This document shows, piece after piece, positions 1,095 to 11,804 of a stretch of DNA of 64,000 nt. A program made the translations under genes and the position numbers. The notes beneath the pieces are model-generated. The model worked only from the letters and a program-made list of their open reading frames with translations. It was not told the origin of the DNA and searched no databases. The DNA comes from Lentisphaerae bacterium GWF2_45_14 (GTDB taxonomy: Bacteria; Verrucomicrobiota; Lentisphaeria; Victivallales; GWF2-45-14): positions 1 through 64,000 of the forward strand of contig MHBG01000058.1 in assembly GCA_001804785.1 (NCBI GenBank), written 5' to 3'. The first letter of the stretch is position 1. The number at the start of each line of letters is the position of its first letter.

Positions 1095-1661
1095 TCAAAG
1101 GTCAAGGAAGTTCTTCAGGAGCTTGTGTCCGTGTTCGGTAAGTATTGACTCGGGGTGGAATTGAACGCCGTGTATTTCAAGCTCCCTGTGCTTTACTCCC
1201 ATTATCACGCCATGGTCGGTTTCCGCGGTGATTTCCAGGATATCGGGGCAGCTTTCTCTTTCTATCACGAGCGAGTGGTAGCGAGTGGCGCTGAAGGGCG
1301 AGGGAATTTCTTTGAAAACGCCCTTCGAGTTGTGCCGTATGGCTGAGACCTTGCCGTGCATGAGGTAGGGAGCGTGTATGATTTTCCCGCCGAATACCTG
1401 TCCGATGCTTTGGTGTCCGAGGCATATTCCGAGTACCGGGATTTTCTTTCCCGCGCAAATTCTTATTGCCTCACAGGATATTCCGGCCTTTTCGGGGGTA
1501 CACGGTCCCGGCGAGACGATAAGCTTTCTGATATCGGACTTTTCAATTTTCCCCGCGCTTATTTCGTCATTTCTGACAACGCGCGGAAAGCAACCCAGTT
1601 CTCCCAGATACTGTACAATGTTATAAGTGAACGAATCGTAATTGTCTATCATTAGTATCAT
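1095..1661 (-). CDS. pabA: Anthranilate/4-amino-4-deoxychorismate synthase glutamine amidotransferase subunit
   Basis: A 188-residue class I glutamine amidotransferase, full length for TrpG/PabA. It supplies ammonia from glutamine to a chorismate-using partner (TrpE or PabB) for tryptophan or folate synthesis. Seen: the N-terminal [16 protein letters not shown] signature, VSPGP (oxyanion loop region), the nucleophile elbow GICLGHQ with Cys80, and HGVQFHPES with His169 and Glu171, completing the catalytic triad. An ATG at 1661 has AGGA nine bases upstream; an internal Met4 is an alternative start. No trpE or pabB lies nearby, so whether it serves tryptophan or folate (or both, as in some bacteria) is open. 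The family call is secure; the pabA symbol is a choice. Confidence 0.88.
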
Positions 1662-1845: not shown

Positions 1846-2973
1846 ATGACTGATCAGCAAGCGCAACAGCAACCGAGAAAAACCATCAAGTTGAAACCTA
1901 TTTCAAAAGCTCCTGGAGCTTCCTTCGGATTTTCAGCGCCAGCACCGGCGCCAATGTCTCCTCAGTCAGCGCCGACTATTCAGGCGGAAAGTTTTGGAGA
2001 GGCCCCCACCGTAAAGCTTTCTCCTCAATCGATTATGAAGCCGCAGCTAATGCCGGAACAGGGACAGCCGGCACCGGACGCTACACACACAGGGACTCAG
2101 CCCCTTAAAAAAGTGCCAACAACTAGTACGCGCCCCGGTTCTCTTATTCCGGAAGGCGCCGACAATAATATGTCCTTTTCTGGAGATCAGACTTTGGTTA
2201 CTCCTTCAATGCCGACATCTGTCGGGCAGGAAATGCCTCAGGTGCCAGGATCAGGAGATGATGAGTCCACTCAGAAAATCGCTACTGCCGCCAAAGCCGT
2301 GGCTAGGCCCCAGCAGCAGACAATCAAGCTTAGGCCGTCGACTATTTCTGCTCCAGCCGCTGCTGCGCCACAGGCAGCACAGACAATCAAGCTTGGAGCT
2401 ATGACTCAGGCCGCAACGCCGACACCAACCCCGAATCCGATGACGATAACGGGCGGCGCAACTATAAAGCTTGTGCCAACGATGGCGACCGAAACTGCGG
2501 CAATAAAGCCTTTTGGCGCAACTATAAAGCTCAGTCCCACTCAGCAGACTCCAGCGCCAGAGACATTGAAGCCAGGTTCTCCTACAATTAAACTGACTGC
2601 CGGCTCTCAAACGACCAAGGCTGAATTCACAGCTCCGGTCTCGCCAGGGGCACGGACTATTCAGCTCAGCCCTGAAGCTCAGACTCAGGCGGAGGGAGCC
2701 GATGAGGCACATCCACATAAGACGAAGCTGGTAATTAAGAAACCTGAAGGGGCTTCGATGTCCGGAATGCACGAAGGACAGCTAAGTCCCGGCGGGGCAG
2801 ATTCCCAGGACAAGCAAGATGAACATGCCGAGCCGTCAATGGTATTTACCCTTGTCGCCATTCTTACGATGGTTATTGCGGGCTATTTCTTCTTCATGTC
2901 CGCCGCCCAGTATGCCAATCACTGGATGGGGAAAAGTATACCCATCCCGGGCATTACGAATAGCGTAAAATAA
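1846..2973 (+). CDS. TIKL-repeat, Ala/Pro-rich protein with C-terminal membrane anchor
   Basis: Unrecognised function. The 375-residue protein is low in complexity (Ala, Pro, Thr, Gln, Ser) and built around a recurring core T-[IV]-[KQ]-L-x-P. Clear copies are KTIKLKP, PTVKLSP, QTIKLRP, QTIKLGA, ATIKLVP, ATIKLSP, PTIKLTA and RTIQLSP, with a degenerate HKTKLVIKKP near residue 290. Spacing between copies is irregular (about 20 to 120 residues). A single hydrophobic segment lies near residues 328-352 (MVFTLVAILTMVIAGYFFF), followed by about 20 residues, so the repeats probably face the cytoplasm with a tail anchor. There is no N-terminal signal. The pattern suggests many short linear motifs on a flexible tether, possibly docking sites for a partner; this is inference. 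It precedes the HAD gene by 35 bases. Confidence 0.7.
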   Translation: MTDQQAQQQPRKTIKLKPISKAPGASFGFSAPAPAPMSPQSAPTIQAESFGEAPTVKLSPQSIMKPQLMPEQGQPAPDATHTGTQPLKKVPTTSTRPGSLIPEGADNNMSFSGDQTLVTPSMPTSVGQEMPQVPGSGDDESTQKIATAAKAVARPQQQTIKLRPSTISAPAAAAPQAAQTIKLGAMTQAATPTPTPNPMTITGGATIKLVPTMATETAAIKPFGATIKLSPTQQTPAPETLKPGSPTIKLTAGSQTTKAEFTAPVSPGARTIQLSPEAQTQAEGADEAHPHKTKLVIKKPEGASMSGMHEGQLSPGGADSQDKQDEHAEPSMVFTLVAILTMVIAGYFFFMSAAQYANHWMGKSIPIPGITNSVK

Positions 2974-3008: not shown

Positions 3009-3578
3009 ATGAAATTCAAAGCGGTCATCTTCGATATGGACGGTACTCTTACCGTGCCGACAATAGACTTTGACCTCATCAGAAAAGAACTCGGCATTCC
3101 TGATGGAGATATGGTCAACGTCATCGCTTCATGGCCGGAGGCCAGGAGGGATGCCGCATGGGCGCTTATACAAAAATATGAGTCTGAATCCAAAATAATA
3201 ATCAAGGATGGCGTTCTTGAATGTCTGAAAAAATTCAGAGAACTAGGCATAATGCTTGGCATTCTTACCCGGAATTCGGCGGATGGTGTGTCACGCGTTG
3301 CTGAAAAACTCCGATTTGATTTCGATATGGTTCTTACCCGCGAACACGAATACGTGAAGCCCGACCCCGAGACAGTCCGCTGTTTCCTGAGGGAATGGGA
3401 ACTTGAACCCGGTGAAACACTTGTTGTCGGCGATTATATCCATGATATCGAATGTGCTCGAAATGCCGGAGCACGGTCATGTTTCTACTTTAATTCCGGT
3501 TCCCGCTTTTACGGCGACGAGTCTGATTTTACCGTGAAAAATTTTCGCGAATTGGAGGCTGTCGTCATTGGGGAATAA
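3009..3578 (+). CDS. HAD-superfamily phosphatase (phosphoglycolate phosphatase-like)
   Basis: A 189-residue haloacid-dehalogenase-like hydrolase, probably a small-molecule phosphatase. Motif I is VIFDMDGTLT with nucleophile Asp9 and acid/base Asp11. Motif II is in GILTRNS (Thr/Ser), motif III is the Lys in YVKPDPE and motif IV is VVGDYIHDIECA with its acidic pair. A small alpha-helical cap (residues about 15-80) sits after motif I, as in subclass IA. The substrate is not predictable; phosphoglycolate or another sugar phosphate is possible. The last 11 bases overlap the next gene's TTG start, indicating co-transcription and possible translational coupling. Confidence 0.85.
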   Translation: MKFKAVIFDMDGTLTVPTIDFDLIRKELGIPDGDMVNVIASWPEARRDAAWALIQKYESESKIIIKDGVLECLKKFRELGIMLGILTRNSADGVSRVAEKLRFDFDMVLTREHEYVKPDPETVRCFLREWELEPGETLVVGDYIHDIECARNAGARSCFYFNSGSRFYGDESDFTVKNFRELEAVVIGE

Positions 3579-4209
3579 GCTTGTAAATAATATATATCAC
3601 GTTCTTTTTGAATGCTTCGGCCCTCAGTACTGGTGGCCCGGCGACTCACCTTGGGAAATCTGCCTGGGCGCTGTCTTGACTCAAAATACCAACTGGGGAA
3701 ATGTGGAAAAAGCAATCGCTAATCTGAAGACAATAGACTCTCTCTGTCCCAGAAAAATACTTGAGATGAAGCGGGAATCGCTGGAAGAGGCATTGCGCCC
3801 GTCCGGCTATTTCAAGCTGAAGTCCGTGAGGCTTTCAAACGTCGCGCGCTGGTGGCTGGAAAACGTCGAAAACGATAAGCTGAAAAAACGTCCGTCCAAT
3901 CTCGATTACTGGCGGGATTCAATCCTTGCGGTAAACGGCGTAGGACCCGAAACCGCGGACAGTATTCTGCTTTATTCCTTCGGGCTTCCGACATTTGTCA
4001 TAGATGCCTATACGCGGAGAATAATGCACCGCCATTTCAATACTCCGGAAAACGTTTCTTACGCCGTTCTCCGGGATTTATTCATGGATAACCTGCCTCA
4101 TGACGCAAAGCTCTTCAATGAGTATCACGCGCTTTTCGTAAGACTCGCCAAAGAGCTGTGCCGCAAAAATATATGCCTGCCTTCGTGTCCGTTTGCTAGC
4201 CACGAATGA
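3568..4209 (+). CDS. Endonuclease III-related DNA glycosylase (COG2231/MagIII-like)
   Basis: A 213-residue HhH-GPD base-excision glycosylase. Seen: VLTQNTNWGNVEKAI (typical of the MagIII/COG2231 branch), the helix-hairpin-helix VNGVGPETADSILLYSFG, and VIDAYTRR with the catalytic Asp. Where endonuclease III has its Schiff-base lysine (GRKTA) this protein has Glu (GPETA), so it should be a monofunctional glycosylase without lyase activity, as in MagIII, which removes 3-methyladenine. The C-terminal cysteine cluster reads C-x4-C-x3-C and then the protein ends, so the fourth cysteine of the usual iron-sulfur loop is missing. The start is TTG (no ATG fits), with GGAG about 10 bases upstream inside the HAD gene. 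Its 3' end overlaps the convergent mutase gene by 14 bases. Confidence 0.8.
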   Translation: MGNKLVNNIYHVLFECFGPQYWWPGDSPWEICLGAVLTQNTNWGNVEKAIANLKTIDSLCPRKILEMKRESLEEALRPSGYFKLKSVRLSNVARWWLENVENDKLKKRPSNLDYWRDSILAVNGVGPETADSILLYSFGLPTFVIDAYTRRIMHRHFNTPENVSYAVLRDLFMDNLPHDAKLFNEYHALFVRLAKELCRKNICLPSCPFASHE

Positions 4210-8019: not shown

Positions 8020-8442
8020 ATGGGGATATCTGCAAAATTATCTATATCCATTGAGATACGCCGGGACGTGGAAATCGATGCCATCATAAGACTTTATGAA
8101 GAGGCCGGCTGGTGGCGCGACGCTTATGACCGTAAATTTATTTCCGGCATCTTGACCGGGTCGTTCTGTTTTGCCGCCGCCTATGCGGGCGATGAGCTTA
8201 TAGGAATGGGGCGGGCGCTTTCTGACGGCGCGAGCGACGCGTACATACAGGACGTGACCGTCCTTAAAGCTTTGCGGGGCCGAGGCGTAGGCCGCCGGAT
8301 TATTCTTGCCATAATTAATCACCTGAAGGCACATGGTGTGGACTGGATAGCCCTTGTCGGGGAGCCGGGCACGAGAGGCTTTTACGAAAAGCTGGGATTC
8401 AGGGAAATGCACGCCTACATCCCGATGAAATTGTCTGATTAG
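8020..8442 (+). CDS. GNAT-family N-acetyltransferase
   Basis: A 140-residue GCN5-related acetyltransferase. The acetyl-CoA loop is visible as [16 protein letters not shown] (motif A, R/Q-x-x-G-x-G/A), preceded by a beta strand with [18 protein letters not shown] and followed by [11 protein letters not shown] (motif B). A TTG at 7999 could extend the frame, but the ATG at 8020 has GGGAGGGG five bases upstream. The substrate (small amine, antibiotic or protein) is not predictable. The stop codon lies just before the sensor kinase gene, whose ribosome site follows within 20 bases, so the two are probably co-transcribed; whether they share a pathway is unknown. Confidence 0.82.
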
Positions 8443-8462
8443 TGAATTCAGAGAGGGGATGG

Positions 8463-11400
8463 ATGAAATCCAACGATGTCGACAGAAATATTATTGGGCG
8501 GAAGTCACTTCTGAAGCTAGCGCTTTTTTCTTTTTCAGTATTTGTTTTACTGTGCTCATTATCCGGTTTCGTCCTTTATTACATATATCATGCTGAGGCT
8601 GAAGGCGAGATTGCCTCGTACATGGATGAGGAGGAGGGACGGCTTCACCTCGTGGGTGAACGCATCCGGATACGCCTGACTGAGGTGATTTCAGACCTTC
8701 TATTTATCGCAGATATCGTTGAAGAGCATACCCAATTTTTCAGTCAGTCTGAATGCTCTAGGCATACAATGGCGGATTTTATTTTATTTGCCAAAAACAA
8801 AAGGATTTATGATCAGATCAGGTACATAAATGAAGACGGCATAGAGGTCATGAGAGTTAATTATAATTCCGGCAGGCCCGTCGCGGTTCCTGCAAAGGAA
8901 CTTCAGAACAAATCACACTGCTATTATTTTAAGGATGCTTCGGCGCTATCCCGCGGGAACGTATATATTTCACCGCTGGATCTGAATATGGAGAACGGGG
9001 TTCTTGAAAAGCCTTATAAACCGATGATAAGACTTGCGGCTCCGGTCTTCGGCCCTTCAGGGGAGCGGCGCGGAATCGTTGTTCTCAACTATCTGGCCTC
9101 CAATCTTCTCAAGGCCGCCTCAGGGCATATGCAGATTATCAACGAGAATGGGGATTGGCTGCGTGGCGGCGGCGCGGGCAAGGACTGGGCATTTATGTTC
9201 GGAGGAGGTGAGCGGTTTAATAAATATTATCCGGAGCTATGGGATATCTCGCGCAAGCACAATGCGGGGCAGATATTTGACGATTCGCGGATATTTGTCT
9301 TTGAAAAGTTGAATCCGACAAAGTCCCATCCGGGAGCGAAGGGAAATACATGGTGCTTATTTACGCTTGCTGACAAGGATAGGGCTTTCCCTTATCTGAA
9401 AGAGGAATTGGTGAAGTTTATTCAGTTTTTCATTATGCTTTGTCTGTTTTTTCTTGCCTTGTGTTTTTATCTTTATCTGCTTGCCGTCAAGAGGATTGCC
9501 GCTGATACGCGCTTTAAGATAATGTTCCGTTATTCTACGGATCCGTATTTTCTTTTTGGCAGGAGAGGCGTTATTGACTGCAACGACGCGGCAATATCTC
9601 TTCTAAAAGTTTCAGGAAGAGAGTATCTGATGGGAAAGTTTCCTTTTGATTTCCCCCCCGAATTTCAGCCTGACGCTATTTTGTCGCGAGTCAAGGCTCT
9701 CTCTTTGCCCGGACAGGCTGAGAAGACGGGCAGTCTGAGGTTTGAATGGGAGTATCTTGATTTTAGCGGGAAGTCGATACCTGCGGAGGTTACATTAAGT
9801 TGTATAAGGCCCGGGAAAAACGGTCTTTTCCTTTTGGAAATTCATGACCTTTCTTTGCGCATCGAGGCCGAGAGAGAGTTACGGCTGAGCGAATTGCGGC
9901 TCAATAAGGCCCAGGAGATTGCCAGGCTCGGAAACTGGGAGCTCGCGATAGACAGCGGCTCTCTCTGGTGGTCAAAAGAGGTTTTCACCTTGTGCGGAAT
10001 GGATCCGGACAGAGATCCGCCAACGTTTAAAAATTATCTCAAGATAATTCATAAAGAGGATATGCGCAGATTTGCCGCCGCCGTGGAGTCTTCCATAAAT
10101 TCAGGAGAGATGTTCGATATAGAATACCGTATCGTTACGACCGACTCTATAAAGGATATGCACACAATAGGCCATCCGAGGCAGGATGCGTCCGGCAAGA
10201 TAGCCGTAGTGAGCGGTACCATCCAGGACATAACCGAAAGAAAGCGCTATGAGGAGGAACTGAAAAACGCCAAGCGGGAGGCAGAAACTATAAATAATCG
10301 GCTTAAAGAGGTCAATCTCAAGCTCGCTAGAAGCATGACAGCTACGCAGAAATTCGCCGCTGAAGCGCGGCAGGCAAGTCTGGCGAAGAGCGAGTTTATC
10401 GCGAATATGTCTCACGAAATAAGAACGCCCATGAATGCGATAATCGGGTTTTCTGAACTCCTCTATAATGAAGAAAAAGACCCTCGCATGCGGGACTACA
10501 TATTGACAGTTAAGAACAGCGGAAAATCTCTCCTCACAATCATAAACGACATTCTGGACATATCAAAAGTAGAGGCCGGCAAGCTATCTCTCACATATAA
10601 ACCGTTTTCAATTTCCTGTGTTATGATGGATATAAAAAACCTATTTGCTCATGGCGTCGAGGAGAAGAAGATTGATTTCACATGCAATGTGGATGACTTC
10701 GTCCCTGATGTCATTATACTTGACGAGACACGTTTCAGGCAGATACTCATGAACCTTGTCGGAAACGCAATAAAGTTTACCGATTCTGGACATATAAGAG
10801 TTTTTATTTTAGGCACGGCGGCTGGGAATAGTGTCGACCGTATAAATCTTTCTCTCAAAGTCGAGGATAGCGGCTGCGGCATTCCGGAGCGGCTGACAGA
10901 GCGTATCTTCGAGCCTTTTGAACAGCTTGCCTCAGATACAGGACCGCATGTTGAGGGAACAGGACTGGGACTGACCATAACCAAAAAGTTAGTCAAAGCG
11001 ATGCACGGGACGATCTCCGTCAGCAGCTGTCCCGGTGAAGGCTCAGTTTTCAGCGTCGATTTTACGGACGTTGAGTTTTCCCGGGAATCAAGTTCCGCAG
11101 CGTCCAGCTCCGAAACAGCCGAGCTCAAAGGTTTCGGTTCCGGCTTTTCTGTTCTTGTCTGCGACAATGATCCAGTTGGAAGGGCGCTTATAAAGGGCTA
11201 TCTTGACGATTGCCCGGATATAAAGCTCTCCGAGGCGTCCAGCATCGCTGAAGCTCTCCTTTTATGCCGCGGGCATAAGCATGATTTTATTTTTATAGAC
11301 ATAAAAGAGGGGGAATTGAACGTGGAGGCAGCATTAAAAAAAATCAGGGATTCTCCTGGCTTGAGGGATGTTGTCCTGGCAATCATAACTTCTTCCGTAG

Positions 11401-11804
11401 AAAAAGAGACAGAGGATTATCTGCGACCGCTTTGCGATGTTTTTCTCCGGAAGCCCGTTAATCGTCGTGGCATAGTCGATTTGCTTGCCGGATTTGTCAG
11501 GAAAAAGAGGAGGGACGTTCTGGAAGAGGGCGATTTTAAAAATGAAGTTCCGGCATTGCCCGCCCTTGAGCAGCTGATGGAACGTTTTCAAGCCGTCTGT
11601 TCCGGCATGAACATGAGGGATATCGAGCTTTTTGGTGAGGATATCTTGAGAGCGGGAGAGAGCTGTAATTCCGCAGGGCTCGTCGATTACGGGAGAAAAA
11701 TCCTGTCAATGGTAGAATCTTTTGATGTTTCGATGCTCTCGTCCACACTTGATTTATTTCCTGTAATGCTTAATAAGATTCGTGAAGCAAAGGAGACGTT
11801 ATGA
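8463..11804 (+). CDS. Membrane-bound hybrid sensor histidine kinase
   Basis: About 1113 residues, acting at the inner membrane. Domains in order: transmembrane segment about 20-42; a periplasmic sensor of ~275 residues resembling a double-Cache domain ([27 protein letters not shown]); a second transmembrane segment about 319-341; two PAS domains (about 349-460 and 485-600); a linker coil; HisKA with phospho-acceptor His651 ([11 protein letters not shown]); HATPase with N-box [20 protein letters not shown] and [10 protein letters not shown]; a receiver domain about 896-1010 with Asp946; and a helical tail of 100 residues. The ATG at 8463 follows GAGGGG and is preferred to the GTG at 8442. The stop overlaps the next gene (ATGA), which encodes a second receiver-kinase, so the two likely form one phosphorelay. 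No DNA-binding output is present. Confidence 0.9.

Follow-up and report, generated by a model that had tools for sequence, protein, structure and literature searches.

A tail-anchored array of threonine motifs in Lentisphaerae bacterium GWF2_45_14 as a candidate multisite phosphothreonine docking strip

Described phosphothreonine docking systems and their likeness to the array

FHA domains read the +3 residue of the sites they bind. The MDC1 protein has FHA and BRCT domains of its own and is not known to have a membrane anchor, and SLMAP, described as a eukaryotic tail-anchored protein, has an FHA domain. To our knowledge, bacterial membrane scaffolds working through phosphothreonine (pThr) are single-site cases only. 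FHA domains are reported to take pThr and largely to reject phosphoserine (pSer), with a pThr pocket that holds the methyl group (PMC3146460). Binding of pSer has also been reported for at least one mycobacterial FHA protein (PMC4238996), and therefore the pThr-only rule is not absolute. Four pT-Q-x-F repeats of MDC1 are described as being read by FHA domains, namely those of RNF8 and Pellino (PMC11884936). Among bacteria, TssL of Agrobacterium is reported to be an inner-membrane protein that binds Fha through one pThr (Thr14, kinase PpkA) (PMC3953482). In the PknQ/MupFHA type of FHA-STPK pair, a Hanks-type kinase and an FHA reader are reported within one bacterium (PMC4238996).

The array protein analysed here is like MDC1, as that protein is described, in having several Thr-centred four-residue motifs with a fixed hydrophobic +3 residue that may serve as a docking strip (PMC11884936). 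It may be noted that MDC1 is a eukaryotic nuclear protein that works with the ATM kinase and has four copies of a TQ core, and no homology is claimed. The MDC1 repeats fit the +3 reading by FHA domains given above. Descent from MDC1 was also considered and rejected, as the window protein matched no Pfam family and hence neither an FHA nor a BRCT domain. TssL is like the array, on the reading that we favour, in being a protein of the bacterial inner membrane with a cytoplasmic pThr that is bound by an FHA protein, and unlike it in being part of type VI secretion with one site and no array (PMC3953482). In the PknQ/MupFHA pairs what is bound is the activation loop of the kinase itself or DivIVA, and there is no multisite tether (PMC4238996). 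SLMAP is like the candidate reader described below in joining an FHA domain to a tail anchor, and it is eukaryotic and unrelated to the array. The array thus resembles MDC1 and TssL in its putative working, not in descent, and what would be new here is a multisite, tail-anchored, bacterial version of a pThr scaffold.

The array protein and its membrane anchor

The window, i.e. the whole stretch of DNA that was analysed, comprises 64,000 nucleotides of the organism (contig MHBG01000058.1, positions 1 to 64,000), and its features are collected in Table 1. The array gene begins with ATG and encodes an Ala/Pro/Thr/Lys/Ser-rich chain. The sequence-only reading had counted at least eight copies of T-[IV]-[KQ]-L-x-P along this chain. 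Eight T[IV][KQ]L cores are indeed present, whereas 2000 shuffles of the protein averaged 0.025 and never exceeded 2. The proline, on the other hand, is found in six of them only and is missing from the fourth and seventh copies (residues 180 and 247); for T[IV][KQ]L.P the shuffled protein gave 0.003 with a maximum of 1. The contrast is weaker for the loose pattern T..[ILM], which occurs 13 times as compared to a shuffle mean of 6.2 and a maximum of 16. TQKI forms a ninth, looser site. The spacings between the eight cores are 42, 104, 21, 26, 20, 21 and 24 residues, so that the last six copies are nearly regular. Codons are mixed among the copies at all four core positions (ACC/ACA/ACT; ATC/ATA/ATT/GTA; AAG/AAA/CAG; TTG/CTT/CTC/CTG), and therefore the cores are not simply a fresh DNA duplication. 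In a 12-row alignment T206 and L209 of the fifth copy are invariant, and many of the rows have a TIKLRPS block where the third copy aligns. A DNA pattern for T[IV]KLxP found 12 places in the own genome, 5 of them inside the array gene, while the reversed pattern used as control found 15; thus a second array was not seen in this genome with that pattern.

The earlier description of a disordered chain ending in a single membrane helix holds in the AlphaFold2 model, where the means of ten-residue blocks stay below 60 pLDDT up to residue 330 (predicted disorder) and the only confident helix coincides with the anchor. The same arrangement recurs in a set of 66 related proteins (see below), 65 of which have one transmembrane (TM) segment by hydropathy. 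The exception is G058, whose frame stops ahead of any anchor. The tail after the TM segment has 6-35 residues, except in L010 (99), G016 (52) and the anchorless G058. Q355 in the anchor helix is invariant over 25 members, and the PG of an I-P-I-P-G stretch in the tail is common to many members. An N-terminal hydrophobic segment was found in none of the 66 members, a count that includes four proteins without a true start (L004, L005, L009 and L130). By its sequence, therefore, the array protein is a tail-anchored membrane protein with a single predicted C-terminal TM helix and no N-terminal signal. As a signal peptide is missing, we infer that the long N-terminal part lies in the cytoplasm.

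Table 1. Features of the array gene and its neighbours, with positions in the window
Feature	Position	Strand	Basis or context
Class-I glutamine amidotransferase	1095..1661	-	divergent, upstream of array gene
Tail-anchored threonine-motif array protein, 375 aa	1846..2973	+	ORF, motifs, predicted disorder and one helix, family
Core copy 1, TIKL(KP), residue 13	1882..1893	+	motif and codon listing
Core copy 2, TVKL(SP), residue 55	2008..2019	+	motif and codon listing
Looser core TQKI, residue 142, acidic upstream	2269..2280	+	motif listing
Core copy 3, TIKL(RP), residue 159	2320..2331	+	motif, codons, alignment
Core copy 4, TIKL(GA), residue 180, without Pro at +5	2383..2394	+	motif, codons
Core copy 5, TIKL(VP), residue 206	2461..2472	+	motif, codons, alignment
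Core copy 6, TIKL(SP), residue 226	2521..2532	+	motif, codons
Core copy 7, TIKL(TA), residue 247, without Pro at +5	2584..2595	+	motif, codons
Core copy 8, TIQL(SP), residue 271	2656..2667	+	motif, codons
Membrane anchor helix, residues 332-361	2839..2928	+	hydropathy, AlphaFold2, alignment
Short C-terminal tail, residues 362-375	2929..2970	+	alignment, AlphaFold2
HAD-like hydrolase	3009..3578	+	downstream of array gene
HhH-GPD base-excision protein	3568..4209	+	next after HAD-like gene

Spread of the family and conservation of the core

Searches of Pfam and NCBIfam gave no family for the window protein, and for 25 members they gave four weak matches alone (three DUFs and TRIQK), each in 1-2 members. 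No solved structure matched the family profile at E 0.01. The earlier statement that the protein has no known family is correct in this respect; by sequence similarity, however, it is a member of an unnamed family spread over the phylum and not an orphan. A search with the single protein in 60 genomes of the order (own genome included) found the family in 11 others, and a profile of 12 members matched 38 of 387 genomes across the phylum. A profile of 25 members matched 40 of the 60 order genomes (own included) and 83 of 374 phylum genomes. The match in G209 is weak (3.4e-4, two stops). Of the 20 profile-negative order genomes, 10 carry a diverged member directly after a conserved TPR gene (G011, G016, G028, G037, G041, G043, G045, G049, G053 and G058); these rest on motif, place and, except for G058, anchor, without a profile score. 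Therefore about 50 of the 60 order genomes carry the family. Members outside the class have T-[AS]-R-I and T-I-R-I cores and, by eye, a similar anchor and tail at the end.

The 66 proteins used for the conservation analysis consist of 53 proteins (28 from loci L121-L160 and 25 found by similarity) and 13 TPR-adjacent ones. Of the 40 loci L121-L160, the heuristic used returned no ORF for two (L133 and L150), and 10 duplicates were left out. L123 and L136 were shortened at the start to an internal Met, and L004, L005, L009, L130 and G058, which are apparently cut short, were retained in the motif counts. Pooling the cores of these members gave T at position 0, mostly I/V/L/A/S at +1, K/R/Q at +2 and I/L/M at +3. 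For the pattern X-[IV]-[KRQ]-[IL], position 0 was T in 247, S in 4 and A in 15 cases, and Val stood there in 3 cases only, in contrast to the variable positions +1 and +2. Where the fourth position holds a residue other than I/L/M/V, the same chains have T 23, S 15 and A 26. The background of 785 neighbouring ORFs, which were picked mechanically and are perhaps not all genes, has T 40 and S 43. Since 41 of the 66 proteins were picked partly by T-motif count or adjacency, the T:S ratio of that part (T 124, S 3) is biased upwards; the 25 members found by similarity alone have T 123, S 1 and A 9. For the longer pattern X-[IV]-[KRQ]-L-x-P the family has T 122 and S 1 and the neighbours T 5 and S 1 (p 0.09), a background too small for a verdict. 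Over whole chains of 53 members Ser (8.0%) and Thr (9.9%) are about equally common.

The hydrophobic residue is likewise tied to threonine. Over the 66 members I/L/M make up 30% at T+3 as compared to 5-17% at all other offsets tested (-6 to +8), and in 61 of the 64 members that could be scored they are commoner at T+3 than at S+3; such an excess is missing in L048 and G037. We also compared proteins within six sets (genus or family) by ordered pairs, so that each pair is counted twice, requiring at least 4 of 8 neighbouring residues to be identical. In these comparisons the motif Thr was retained in 298 of 301 cases, as against 768 of 927 for Thr elsewhere in the chains. The contrast persists when local identity is matched (31/31 and 267/270 for motif Thr versus 89/137 and 679/790 for other Thr). 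Changes at +3 are confined to I/L/M/V in all 301 comparisons. The 18 members outside the class obey the same rule of T and hydrophobic +3. Judged from these alignments and counts, the conserved core is T-x-x-[ILM] and not TIKL as such. Strict cores number a median of 6 per member. Loss of the motif with the anchor kept, which the sequence-only reading had named as the mark of compositional drift, was found in 1 of the 66 members (G002, strict cores 0), and the other 65 have at least 2. The G002 member (L150:6077-6955 -) has repeats of TIKPV with anchor and tail kept, i.e. a natural loss of the +3 residue.

Some of the gene order around the array is also shared. A HAD-like gene follows the array gene in L146 and L149 and, with one gene in between, in L151 and L153; in L146, L149 and L151 the HhH-GPD gene comes next in the same order. 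The order common to the window and these three loci therefore indicates that part of an older gene order survives. The class-I glutamine amidotransferase is found in the same place in G023, G017 and G027. Outside the class, the array gene follows a ribosome recycling factor gene in six loci; in 5 of these 6 an amino-acid-kinase-family gene (pyrH-like by eye) stands before it, one locus (L136) having been checked by Pfam. Elsewhere in the window (8442-11804 +) lies a hybrid histidine kinase of the ordinary type, made up of sensor, PAS, HisKA and HATPase parts and a receiver just under the Pfam cut-off.

Proposed working, candidate reader and rival readings

The reading that we favour, and to which we give about an even chance of being correct, is that the array is a membrane-tethered, kinase-controlled, multisite pThr docking strip for FHA proteins. 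The C-terminal helix would hold the scaffold in the inner membrane while about 330 disordered cytoplasmic residues show eight or nine T-x-x-[IL] sites. Some of these sites would be phosphorylated on Thr by Hanks-type Ser/Thr kinases, and pThr with its hydrophobic +3 residue would be bound by FHA domains, giving a switchable, multivalent docking at the membrane. A docking motif for a plain groove rarely, in our judgement, requires Thr while excluding Ser. The Thr of the array is nearly exclusive and thus far more constrained than plain docking needs, which points to a phospho-switch, and an FHA reader is suggested because FHA domains need Thr and largely exclude Ser, unlike a plain groove. The multivalent docking tether of the sequence-only reading is retained as far as repeats and anchor are conserved together with no signal peptide, but its core has become T-x-x-[ILM] with a Thr more constrained than such a tether would call for. 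The analysis itself shows the array and its conservation, the near-strict Thr, the hydrophobic +3 residue, the anchor and the gene links, while phosphorylation, FHA binding and the choice of reader are our inference.

Every one of the 60 order genomes contains FHA and kinase genes, as do all 45 of the other genomes that matched the family, and this universality leaves co-occurrence with little power. In the own genome there are 28 matches to Ser/Thr kinases and 15 to FHA domains. Among its FHA genes (L168, L171 and L173) are two FHA-Ser/Thr kinase fusions and a third gene that joins FHA to a T2SSE-type secretion ATPase. The number of motif copies correlates with the number of FHA matches with a rho of 0.42 over the 35 genomes having an uncut protein among the 66; within the taxonomic families f4 and f5 the values are 0.57 and, for strict cores, -0.77. 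Loose cores within f5 give +0.57, i.e. the opposite sign to the strict cores.

Seven f4 genomes have the family and one FHA match. Six of these (G011, G034, G041, G043, G049 and G161) share the same tail-anchored FHA gene, which encodes an FHA domain followed by a C-terminal helix, and the seventh (G209) has a different FHA protein. GR and S-x-x-H, which we take to be the usual pThr-site residues of FHA domains, are present in all 12 aligned tail-anchored FHA proteins. The gene was found with a TM helix in at least 24 order genomes, a lower bound since the 40 FHA loci fetched were chosen mostly by frame length. In 23 of these genomes the ftsH cluster follows on the same strand, two of the 23 having been checked by Pfam; in G009 an antisense frame was picked, so that the ftsH neighbour was not called. 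In the own genome the gene (G000:C41:10169-10738; L253:3670-4239 +) lies directly before ftsH. This tail-anchored FHA protein encoded just before ftsH would be the likeliest reader of the cores in the order, and other FHA proteins of the genome may dock too. Among the papers listed by literature searches for FHA with this phylum, FtsH or tail anchors none was relevant, and those listed said nothing on the targets of Ser/Thr-kinase and FHA proteins in this group. Three f8 genomes (G008, G015 and G021) have the gene with no array found, and therefore the tail-anchored FHA protein cannot depend on the array alone. These genomes count against an exclusive pairing of this reader with the array, as do G209 and G270, the latter a genome outside the class whose lone FHA is a soluble 134-aa protein. 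Counting against the pThr/FHA reading as a whole are the inconsistent correlations between copies and FHA number, the TIKPV repeats of G002 and the fact that no FHA gene was found adjoining the array gene or the TPR gene.

The sequence-only reading had also asked for a linked partner, and apart from the candidate reader the check brought out a TPR gene in two families of the order. This gene directly precedes the array gene in 20 f4 genomes (9 + 11) and 3 f2 genomes (G002, G009 and G016); the adjacency was not found in the f1, f3, f5, f6, f7 and f8 loci fetched. The TPR protein is strongly matched in 56 of the 60 order genomes, and AlphaFold2 gives it a confident alpha-solenoid (pLDDT 90); a structure search with the model returned generic TPR superhelices and no functional clue. 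As the TPR superhelix fold often binds peptides, the cores could be plain short linear motifs that need no phosphorylation to dock, either in the groove of the linked TPR protein or on a different partner, with the anchor bringing that partner to the membrane. We consider this rather unlikely, though next best after the pThr/FHA strip, and both could operate at once. It is hard to see why a TPR groove would turn down Ser or accept Val in 3 cases only, and the TPR and array genes are apart in the own genome, in the fetched f3 and f5 loci and in the f4 genomes G004, G024 and G051.

Kinase genes have been found near both the TPR and the array gene. A Ser/Thr kinase stands directly after the TPR gene in seven f3 genomes, six of them (G010, G017, G023, G027, G030 and G033) by PF00069 coordinates and G003 by Pfam; the kinase profile for the neighbour scan was itself built from f3 neighbours, so that independent support comes from these PF00069/Pfam matches. 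The array lies elsewhere in these genomes, none being found in G003, and the f3 link perhaps arose once and was passed on to all seven genomes. In the own genome a receiver-domain and Ser/Thr-kinase gene (L195:2857-4665 +) is convergent to the TPR gene (L195:4796-6238 -) and adjoins a gene for a pseudopilin-like protein (by eye) with a long GGQG repeat (L195:1757-2857 +). Outside the class, G330 has a Ser/Thr kinase gene (L130:4363-5925 -) directly behind the array gene, and in G103 (L124) a Ser/Thr kinase is four genes away. The former is the one such case in 18 outside-class loci with an array ORF and is weak evidence. These neighbours speak for the pThr/FHA strip. Together with the many kinases of the own genome, they are also what one would expect if the array were a substrate tether that draws in membrane Ser/Thr kinases, saturates them or serves as a readout of how active they are, and had no FHA reader dedicated to it. 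This is improbable in our view, as it leaves the hydrophobic +3 residue, retained in all 301 comparisons, unexplained unless the kinase needs that residue.

It is more improbable still that the long N-terminal part is periplasmic with basic cores that bind an envelope polymer. The charges flanking the anchor do not favour an N-in orientation (on average -0.94 before the helix and -0.23 after it, 66 members), and the side is not settled by them; but the export of about 330 residues is hard to explain in proteins that, four without a true start included, have no N-terminal hydrophobic segment. Compositional drift of a low-complexity chain with meaningless motifs, to which the Ala/Pro/Thr/Lys/Ser richness and the G002 member would lend themselves, is scarcely credible and is already disfavoured by the controls, i.e. 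the shuffles, the retention of the motif Thr within genera and the preference for T+3 over S+3.

Going back to the pThr docking strip for FHA proteins, the conserved Thr array, the candidate reader and the linked TPR gene make the question directly testable. As a tentative and somewhat doubtful extension, the tail-anchored pThr array and the tail-anchored FHA reader may form a membrane-bound, kinase-controlled pair that gathers FHA clients, a bacterial counterpart of the MDC1 principle spread over the phylum, and the FHA-ftsH link may tie Ser/Thr-kinase signalling to membrane proteolysis. If the docking strip is real, it would be a multivalent bacterial pThr scaffold at the membrane.
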